A stretch of 64,000 nucleotides of DNA. Source: Flavihumibacter solisilvae (GTDB lineage Bacteria > Bacteroidota > Bacteroidia > Chitinophagales > Chitinophagaceae). Shown piece after piece: positions 17,926 to 19,877 of this stretch. Under the pieces are notes generated by a model, which did not search any database, was not told the DNA's origin, and saw only the letters and a list, made by a program, of their open reading frames with translations. Position 1 is the first letter of the stretch. The number at the start of each line of letters is the position of its first letter. A program made the translations under genes and the position numbers. The stretch is taken from contig NZ_JSVC01000019.1 in assembly GCF_000814475.1 (NCBI RefSeq), forward strand, positions 62,001 through 126,000, written 5' to 3'.

Positions 17926-19362
17926 TTAACCGATTGTACCGGCGAGTTCGAGAGCTTTTTTAAGGGCACCAAGTTTATTGTTTACTTCTGCGAGTTCGCT
18001 GTCCGGGTTGCTCGCAGCTACCACGCCTGCACCGGCCTGGTAGGTAAGGGTATTGTTCCTGCTGAGAAATGTCCTGATCATTATCGCATGATTGCAGCTG
18101 CCATCAAACCCCATGAATCCTATGGCGCCGCCATAATAACCACGGTCGGTGGGTTCAAACTCATTGATCAGCTGCATAGCCCTGATCTTGGGAGCACCAC
18201 TCAGTGTGCCCGCAGGAAAGGTTTTGGCTATGAGTAAAAAAGGATTGGTACCGGGGCGTACACTGCCCGTGACTTCACTTACGAGGTGAATGACATGCGA
18301 GAAATATTGCACCTGGCGGTAATGGGTCACCACCACATCATCGCAGAGTCGGCTCAGATCGTTACGGGCAAGATCTACCAGCATCACATGTTCTGCATTT
18401 TCCTTCGCATCTGCTAATAATCTTTCAGTTTCCTGCCGGTCCTTTTCTTCATCACCACTTCTTCTGTAAGTTCCGGCAATGGGGTGAACCACTGCCTTAC
18501 CGTTGGAAATAATGAGTTGTGCCTCGGGGGATGATCCCATCAGTTTATAGTCACCATAGTCAAAGAAGAACAGGTATGGTGAAGGATTGATACTTCGCAG
18601 TGCCCGGTACACATTGAACTCATCTCCTGTGAACGATTGCTGGAACCTGCGGCTGAGTACGATCTGGAAAACGTCGCCACGATGACAGCTACGGATCCCC
18701 TTTCTTACCATTTCCAGGTAATCACCATCAGGCATGTTTACTTTTTCCACGCCGTTAACGGAGAAAGGATATACCGGAACATCTTTGCTCCTGATCAGGG
18801 ATTCCACAACAGCCAGTTCAGATTCTAACCCATTGATCCGGTTTTCACAGAGATACAGTTCATCCTTGAAATGATTGATCGCTATCACATACTGGTATAA
18901 GCGGTATCGCATCAGCGGAATGGCAGTCGACAGGGTGCCATTTGTGTGTTGAGGAAGTGTGACAGTATCGAAAAACTGCACGGCATCGTATGTGGTATAA
19001 CCGTAAAGGCCCTGAGCGTAACGTGCTGCCTTATGCGAAGAAGGCATAAGCTCAAATCGTTGCATAAAACCCCAGAGTTGACCGGGCACTTCAGCGGGAT
19101 CTTTGATTCCTGCATTCTCCGGTTGCTGCCCGGGGAATTTGTATTCGATACTTTCGAGTGAGCTGATTTCCATTCCTGCAATTGCATTGATGCAGATAAA
19201 GGAATAGCTGTTGTCTGACGCATGGTGGTCTGTGCTTTCCAACAGGATGGTATCCCGGAACCTGTCCCTTAACCGGAGGTAAATACCTACGGGAGTATAT
19301 ACATCTGCCAGCATTTGCTTAACGACCGTCTCAATCCTGATCTTTTTCGATTCGCCTGCCAT
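17926..19362 (-). CDS. trpE: Anthranilate synthase component I
   Basis: 478 residues from MAGESKKIRIE. The Trp feedback site pattern FRDTILLESTD is near the N-terminus. The chorismate-binding C-terminal half has DVFQIVLSRRF, INPSPYLFFFDYGD, PIAGTYRRSGDEE, DLARNDLSRLC, PAGTLSGAPKIRAM and GYYGGAIGFMGFDG. An upstream TTG extension would run into the attenuator hairpin and is rejected. It is the first structural gene of the trp operon; a leader peptide and terminator hairpin precede it. Confidence 0.97.
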   Translation of the reverse strand: MAGESKKIRIETVVKQMLADVYTPVGIYLRLRDRFRDTILLESTDHHASDNSYSFICINAIAGMEISSLESIEYKFPGQQPENAGIKDPAEVPGQLWGFMQRFELMPSSHKAARYAQGLYGYTTYDAVQFFDTVTLPQHTNGTLSTAIPLMRYRLYQYVIAINHFKDELYLCENRINGLESELAVVESLIRSKDVPVYPFSVNGVEKVNMPDGDYLEMVRKGIRSCHRGDVFQIVLSRRFQQSFTGDEFNVYRALRSINPSPYLFFFDYGDYKLMGSSPEAQLIISNGKAVVHPIAGTYRRSGDEEKDRQETERLLADAKENAEHVMLVDLARNDLSRLCDDVVVTHYRQVQYFSHVIHLVSEVTGSVRPGTNPFLLIAKTFPAGTLSGAPKIRAMQLINEFEPTDRGYYGGAIGFMGFDGSCNHAIMIRTFLSRNNTLTYQAGAGVVAASNPDSELAEVNNKLGALKKALELAGTIG

Positions 19363-19387
19363 ATTTAAGTTTTCTCTTTTCGGCAAT

Positions 19388-19414
19388 AAAAAAGCCCCGA
19401 TGTAGTATCGGGGC
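19388..19414 (-). terminator. trp attenuator: Rho-independent terminator between trpL and trpE
   Basis: Read on the minus strand, GCCCCGAT, a 5-nt loop and ATCGGGGC form a perfect 8-bp GC-rich stem (19394-19414) followed at once by six U (19388-19393). It ends 25 nt before the trpE ATG and 36 nt after the trpL stop. The first arm (CCCC at 19410-19413) can instead pair with GGGG at 19458-19461 inside the leader ORF (extended by UC/GA across a bulged A), giving an antiterminator. A ribosome finishing trpL would cover that GGGG, whereas one stalled on the Trp codons would leave it free. Classic ribosome-mediated attenuation is therefore predicted. Confidence 0.88.
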
Positions 19415-19449
19415 CTGTTAATATGTTTAAAATAAACAAAGTAATGACA

Positions 19450-19512
19450 TTACAGCACCCCTGAAGAGTTTGTATGCCACCACCACTGAATATTTTGAAT
19501 GTTTTTAATCAT
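19450..19512 (-). CDS. trpL: trp operon leader peptide with three tandem Trp codons
   Basis: The minus-strand frame from ATG 19512 to TAA 19450 encodes the 20-residue peptide MIKNIQNIQWWWHTNSSGVL. Three consecutive TGG codons occupy 19477-19485. The rest of the peptide is otherwise unremarkable, as expected for a regulatory leader. It lies 87 nt upstream of trpE, between a TAATTTTG -7 promoter element and a terminator hairpin. Its function would be to sense charged tRNA-Trp by ribosome stalling. No strong SD precedes the ATG, which is usual in this phylum. Confidence 0.88.
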   Translation of the reverse strand: MIKNIQNIQWWWHTNSSGVL

Positions 19513-19546
19513 GCATTACAAATATGCAGCAGCAAATCGAAATGAA

Positions 19547-19554
19547 CAAAATTA
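19547..19554 (-). promoter_or_regulatory. Candidate -7 element of the trp operon promoter
   Basis: TAATTTTG on the minus strand matches TAnnTTTG exactly. The -33 element is weak: the nearest TTG is about 24 nt upstream. Transcription would begin near 19541, leaving a leader of about 29 nt before trpL. The element overlaps the 5' region of the divergent small GNAT gene. Confidence 0.5.
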
Positions 19555-19583
19555 TTTTAGGTAGCTTACTGAAAATTTCAATT

Positions 19584-19877
19584 ATGCTCATCCAACATAC
19601 ACACAATGAAAGCAAAGGGGTTTTCTTCGTGGGACAGGATGGTGCAATCCTTGCAGAATTGGTTTACACCATGCCCTCTTTCGATAAAATGATCATTGAA
19701 CATACTGAAGTCTCCGAAGAGCTGAAAGGCGAAGACGTGGGTTACCACCTGGTGGAAACGGCAGTGGAATATGCCCGAACGCACCATCTGCATATCATCC
19801 CTTTATGCCCGTTTGCCAACGCGGTGTTCAAAAAAAAAGCAGATTACCGGGATGTGCTTTTTGAGTTCGGGACCTGA
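19584..19877 (+). CDS. Small GNAT-like protein (YjdJ / GNAT_2 type)
   Basis: 97 residues from the ATG at 19584. GVFFVGQDGAILAELVYTM, MIIEHTEVSEELKGEDVGYHLVETAVEYAR and HIIPLCPFANAVFKKK..YRDVL are the hallmarks of the short Gcn5-related domain (PF14542-like), including the PLCPFA motif. An ATG at 19524 would add 20 residues that overlap the trp promoter and are not family-like, so it is rejected. The family is of unknown substrate. With the next gene it forms a plus-strand pair inserted between hisB and trpE. Confidence 0.82.
   Translation: MLIQHTHNESKGVFFVGQDGAILAELVYTMPSFDKMIIEHTEVSEELKGEDVGYHLVETAVEYARTHHLHIIPLCPFANAVFKKKADYRDVLFEFGT

Follow-up and report, generated by a model that had tools for sequence, protein, structure and literature searches.

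Does the short open reading frame (ORF) with tandem Trp codons upstream of trpE in Flavihumibacter solisilvae govern transcription of the trp operon? We addressed this in the window, the whole stretch of 64,000 nucleotides that was analysed. A preliminary description had placed a trp attenuator here, consisting of a leader ORF with three TGG codons and a terminator in front of trpE, and every one of these elements was recovered from the sequence on the minus strand, at the position assigned to it. The element is very probably an ordinary ribosome-mediated transcription attenuator of the trp operon. Its parts are listed in the direction of transcription.

19550-19547, minus strand: -33-type promoter element TTTG, 20 nt before the -7 box
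19526-19519, minus strand: -7 box CATATTTG, a relaxed form of the Bacteroidota TAnnTTTG box, separated from the leader ATG by 6 nt
19512-19450, minus strand: leader peptide ORF MIKNIQNIQWWWHTNSSGVL with its stop codon, read from the sequence and kept 5' of trpE in relatives
19512-19510, minus strand: start codon of the leader ORF
19485-19477, minus strand: three tandem Trp codons (codons 10-12), the proposed stall site and part of region 1
19484-19440, minus strand: protector (1:2), 19484-19474 with 19450-19440 and an inner hairpin of 19469-19465 with 19461-19457, from the MFE fold
19461-19410, minus strand: antiterminator (2:3), GGGGU 19461-19457 and CUGU 19455-19452 with 19418-19410 (ACAGGCCCC), from duplex and isolated folds
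19461-19458, minus strand: GGGG in the leader ORF (the G-run)
19452-19450, minus strand: leader stop codon TAA
19416-19392, minus strand: intrinsic terminator stem-loop (3:4), from the fold, the terminator scan and covariation
19393-19388, minus strand: T6 tract of the terminator, from the sequence
19362-17926, minus strand: trpE, anthranilate synthase component I, best matched by NCBIfam trpE_most
17915-12276, minus strand: trpG, trpD, trpC, trpF, a GNAT acetyltransferase gene, trpB and trpA, in this order, from ORFs with NCBIfam and Pfam

The trpE product scored 388.9 bits against trpE_most (E 3.6e-116), below the curated cut-off of 517.7, and the trpF match was below the cut-offs of its NCBIfam and Pfam models. 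The longest trpE ORF begins at a TTG (19386) right behind the T tract; the ATG at 19362 is probably the start instead. Between trpF and trpB the operon holds the GNAT acetyltransferase gene (14809-14291, minus strand), for which the nearest NCBIfam models, ArsN1b and ArsN1a, both scored under cut-off. A small GNAT-like gene (PF14542) at 19524-19877 on the plus strand is oriented divergently to the trp leader, which should place the two promoters close together.

Conservation of the leader upstream of trpE

A TrpE search of 59 genomes gave some match in 57, and we examined 34 loci with near full-length TrpE, related to that of the window at 62-83% identity. A leader with three tandem Trp codons (WWW) lay 5' of trpE in 32/34 of them; the leaders of two loci, L031 and L033, have a doubtful WW. 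We also collected at least 80 named trpE loci, 77 of which were usable, with at least 250 nt upstream; L077, L139 and L141 fell short of that length and were dropped, although L077 and L139 do show WWW. The two collections have at least five genomes in common. Among the matches listed, the 77 usable loci divided into 65 with WWW, five with WW and seven with neither, and by eye an attenuator leader was still present in all of these last seven, six of them having a single Trp codon and the other (L140) W-R-W. The G-run and terminator remain in the single-Trp leaders (..GWH..; L118, L124, L125, L127, L128 and L129). At the other end, the L026 leader has four Trp codons, and across the leaders the number of Trp codons forms a natural series.

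A missing Trp run in orthologous leaders had been named as the finding that would speak against the attenuator. A run was present: alongside the 32 WWW leaders of the 34 loci, at least WW was found in 70/77 named loci among the matches listed. A short ATG-initiated ORF with WWW occurred within 500 nt 5' of trpE in 65/77 of these loci on the sense strand, compared with 0/77 on the antisense strand and 1/1540 mononucleotide shuffles. The WWW leader upstream of trpE is not a product of chance.

Two wider searches were made. Of 27 matches to a 17-nt leader pattern in the 59 genomes, 24 lay just 5' of trpE; around the three away from trpE, no trp gene was seen by eye among the neighbouring ORFs of at least 80 aa. 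A covariance model built from 26 leaders found matches at E <= 0.001 in 70 of 198 genomes of the class, only two of which scored above 40 bits (own genome, 102; G018, 80.3). The remaining matches (<=39.9 bits), several of which hit the two strands of a single site, resemble background from terminators and were rejected, and thus we drew no leader distribution from this search.

Within the leaders, the RNA rather than the peptide seems to be conserved. In L013 and L014, an apparent compensated one-base insertion and deletion turns TNS into TKL and leaves ACUCU and GGGG unchanged, and five of the 26 leaders carry the G-run one base later, which changes the peptide end from GVL to RGL or RGM. It is this frame change and these end changes, with the G-run kept, that point to the RNA as the level at which the leader is held. 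Shortened peptides also occur, such as those ending WWWHTNS (L091) and WWWQSIF (L102).

Three mutually exclusive structures

The leader region folded at -43.6 kcal/mol (MFE, z -5.4), which none of 200 shuffles equalled. The terminator, described earlier as an 8-bp stem and six T directly before trpE, stands as such: the core pairs 19414-19407 with 19401-19394, reaching 10 bp if the outer A-U and G-U pairs are counted, and T6 follows at 19393-19388. The gap of 36 nt reported between the leader ORF and the terminator needs a small correction, as it is obtained only by counting the first stem base; from the stop codon to the 8-bp stem there are 35 nt. The terminator alone has -16.1 kcal/mol, and it was the sole terminator-like site that the terminator scan found within 19200-19800, where shuffles averaged 0.7. 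A terminator was found behind the leader in 27/34 trpE loci by a strict scan; a looser one detected a hairpin followed by a T-rich stretch in 34/34. In an alignment of 25 distinct leaders, 99.2% of terminator cells were paired, compared with 28-62% in slid versions. Covariation of the terminator was strong, with both sides changed in 8/10 pairs, and on each of five measures 0/500 shuffles did as well.

The G-run of the leader ORF had been proposed to pair with CCCC of the terminator arm. This pairing is present in folds and duplexes, but as the central part of a more extended antiterminator, in which GGGGU[G]CUGU pairs with ACAG-G-CCCC, G19456 is bulged and an apical hairpin lies between the two strands. 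In the window the duplex has -13.6 kcal/mol for the cores and -15.8 with longer regions. When the antiterminator region was folded in isolation, L001-L027 paired the G-run with the terminator arm and L034 formed an equivalent pairing, making 28 of the 31 leaders examined. The pairing was absent from L028, L029 and L030 in these folds; L029 pairs otherwise, and L028 and L030 formed nothing notable. The four leaders L027-L030, which have no GGGG core, were left out of alignment A2, of the covariation analyses of protector and terminator and of the antiterminator core tests, and L031-L034 were left out of most structure counts, L034 being included in the isolated-fold count.

Where a G-run is present (26 leaders), it begins at +15 nt after the Trp run in 21 and at +16 in five, and the downstream C-run follows 41-52 nt after it. 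Matched changes are seen in L021, where the antiterminator is a perfect 10-bp duplex, and in L018, L020, L024 and L025, where GGGGC faces CCUC or CUUC arms and pairing is kept by G-U pairs. Own partners were compared with swapped partners, relatedness not being removed in any of these tests, with outcomes of 0/10000 permutations for long regions (30 loci), 198/10000 for 11-nt cores (26 leaders) and 40-701/10000 when each genus was represented by a single leader, the value varying with the leader chosen. The window's own pair ranked 14 of 30 (long regions). The antiterminator is well formed in relatives, and its covariation is modest.

A third structure, absent from the preliminary description, is a protector helix built from the Trp codons themselves. 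It pairs the UGG codons with bases past the stop codon, and ACUCU with GGGGU. Among the 25 distinct leaders, 89.3% of its cells were paired (slid controls, 30-62%), with no covariation beyond that of shuffles, which is expectable because the Trp codons are fixed. By folds and duplexes, protector, antiterminator and terminator are mutually exclusive. The attenuator that had been proposed, with its Trp-codon leader, its terminator and an exclusive pairing of G-run with C-run, is kept 5' of trpE across Chitinophagaceae.

Promoter and start of the message

We looked for promoter elements in 103 distinct leaders, after removal of six duplicates and of L031 and L033 with their doubtful WW. In 88/103, the leader ATG follows 4-10 nt after the end of a box of the form [TC]AnnTT[TC]G, compared with 49/3328 random anchors in the same regions. 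The count is partly post hoc, as the relaxed box was picked after viewing 26 of these leaders, only 7 of which have the strict TAnnTTTG within 150 nt 5' of the Trp run. The distance from box to ATG is exactly 7 nt in 55/103, the mode for trp. TTTG occurs 15-25 nt further 5' of the box in 77/103 (random anchors, 1/3328) and 19-21 nt before it in 72/103. Another promoter candidate in the window, TAATTTTG at 19554-19547, was dropped in favour of the CATATTTG box after comparison with the other leaders.

In Flavobacterium psychrophilum, the TAnnTTTG box is placed at -12 to -5 (excerpts of PMC9723704). Applied to the window, this placement predicts a transcription start at about 19514, some 2 nt before the leader ATG, and hence a near-leaderless trp leader mRNA. 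Leaderless mRNAs make up 5.5% in F. psychrophilum (same excerpts), and in Bacteroides thetaiotaomicron about 3.7% have 5' UTRs shorter than 10 nt (excerpts of PMC7366714, which also remark on short ORFs resembling leader peptides). Bacteroidota mRNAs are described as being without Shine-Dalgarno sequences in the available part of PMC6847099.

A second attenuator in the window lies before hisG (25014-24881, minus strand). Its leader is MKQITQKHHHHHLLQSR, its terminator is at 24924-24900 (minus strand), a box TATTTTTG stands 8 nt before its ATG, and the GGTAAGC that surrounds its stop codon is a repeat of the 3' arm of the terminator. An H-rich leader was picked up by a script pattern in 21/25 loci of a hisG search (own locus included, L179 a weak match), and L158, which the pattern missed, reads as an H-rich leader too (HYHH). 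The window also carries a small SRP RNA (RF04183; 27439-27332, minus strand), its sole Rfam match at gathering score.

The trp and his attenuators of Chitinophagaceae might both be run by leaderless leader peptides, with a -7 box nearly fixed relative to the ATG and a ribosome that loads on the 5'-terminal AUG as the transcript emerges, a proposal that we judge to be evenly balanced between right and wrong. If true, it would mean that leaderless initiation, rare in the phylum, is used systematically to time ribosome against polymerase without a Shine-Dalgarno sequence. The predicted near-leaderless start is the one feature of the attenuator worth bench work; together with the series of Trp codon numbers it offers a test of 5'-terminal AUG loading without Shine-Dalgarno, and leaders whose Trp codons number from four down to one are a ready set for asking how codon number tunes attenuation.

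Proposed mechanism and alternatives

We infer the following response to Trp and order of events. RNA polymerase would begin about 2 nt before the leader ATG, and a ribosome would load on the nearly leaderless message and trail it. With ample Trp-tRNA, the ribosome would get to the stop codon and mask the G-run, and we propose that the terminator then forms and transcription stops before trpE. The window G-run sits 6-9 nt 5' of the stop codon and 15 nt after the Trp run, distances that fit such masking. With Trp-tRNA scarce, the ribosome would stall at the UGG run and so open the protector, one strand of which is the UGG codons; GGGGU-CUGU would then be free to pair with ACAG-G-CCCC, holding the terminator 5' arm and giving read-through. 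Without translation, the protector would form first and termination would be the default.

The hairpin might instead be a plain intrinsic terminator, at the end of an upstream unit or as a constitutive partial terminator, beside a WWW ORF that is there by chance. Its strength alone and the presence of a hairpin with a T-rich tail at all 34 loci in the looser scan would suit this reading, but the strand-specific WWW ORF of the named loci (65/77 among the matches listed, against none antisense and a single shuffle) and the promoter box that immediately precedes the ORF in 88/103 distinct leaders argue against it, and we consider it extremely unlikely. Next to no probability attaches to control of the operon by TRAP, a T-box or a TrpR operator, with the leader ORF incidental. 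Such systems run trp genes in other phyla, but TrpR (PF01371) and TRAP (PF02081) were not found in the own genome, control genomes being positive for both, no T-box reached gathering score in the Rfam scan of the window, and the Trp codons of the leader are conserved.

It has been reported that the Sinorhizobium meliloti leader peptide peTrpL acts in trans (excerpts of PMC7298713), and a similar action, besides or in place of attenuation in cis, could be considered for a peptide whose WWWHTN recurs in 33/77 named leaders among the matches listed. Against this, conservation looks to be at the RNA level, given the frame change of L013 and L014 and the change of GVL to RGL with the G-run intact, and the peptide is shortened in leaders such as L091 and L102. 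A role in trans is very unlikely, and attenuation in cis by the translating ribosome is the reading that we carry forward.

Comparison with known systems

In E. coli trpL, the Trp codons lie in region 1, and the leader forms alternative 1:2, 2:3 and 3:4 pairings. The window leader shares this attenuation logic with its own 1:2, 2:3 and 3:4 pairings, but differs in sequence, spacing and peptide, scores 28.6 bits against RF00513 (Trp_leader; cut-off 41), and belongs to a genome in which TrpR was not found. In the Alphaproteobacterium S. meliloti, the trpL/rnTrpL RNA begins at the leader ATG (excerpts of PMC7298713), a reported 5' end to which the one predicted for the window would be close. Closer by, in the Flavobacteriaceae of the same phylum, 'strong clues' for leader peptide attenuation 5' of amino-acid biosynthesis operons are described for F. 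psychrophilum in PMC9723704, the available excerpts of which name no trp leader. Our literature search on trp leaders and attenuation in Bacteroidota returned no study titled on Chitinophagaceae trp leaders; as it left most subscription journals uncovered, it has little bearing on novelty.

The known trp leader of Bacteroidota is RF01692 (Bacteroid-trp), which appears in Table 1 of PMC2864571 and is mentioned for F. psychrophilum in PMC6414381 (excerpts of both). Like the window, it is a Bacteroidota trp leader RNA with a short WWW ORF followed by a terminator, and the window aligns from end to end of the model, its start and Trp codons falling in register. Unlike a member of the family, the window scores 29.3 bits (E 0.14) against a gathering cut-off of 49 bits, no better than the unrelated MicC, with 30.2 bits in the same Rfam scan. 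The cut-off was reached by 0/20 related loci that we chose from 114 trpE loci for scanning, and RF01692 had no match in the own genome. Among 198 genomes of the phylum, 17 had a match, 15 of them over the cut-off and all in one other family (f24).

These matches (L045-L061) have a WWW leader in 17/17. Their terminator arm pairs weakly, around or after the stop codon, in contrast to that of the window, which pairs with the G-run inside the ORF; we dropped the idea that the ORF of RF01692 leaders duplicates the terminator arm, the duplexes being weak (-1.6 to -6.1) and the arm pairing around or after the stop. The distance from box to ATG is 16-20 nt in 11/17 and 4-7 nt in six, and from these six near-leaderless starts may extend beyond Chitinophagaceae. 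In how it works, the window leader matches RF01692, and the two may be divergent homologues, although the window leader fails the score test of that family. Ribosome-mediated trp attenuation is a known kind of control, already described for Bacteroidota through RF01692, and what is new here is only a lineage-specific form: a well-supported trp attenuator of Chitinophagaceae beyond the reach of Rfam Bacteroid-trp, with its antiterminator and protector defined.
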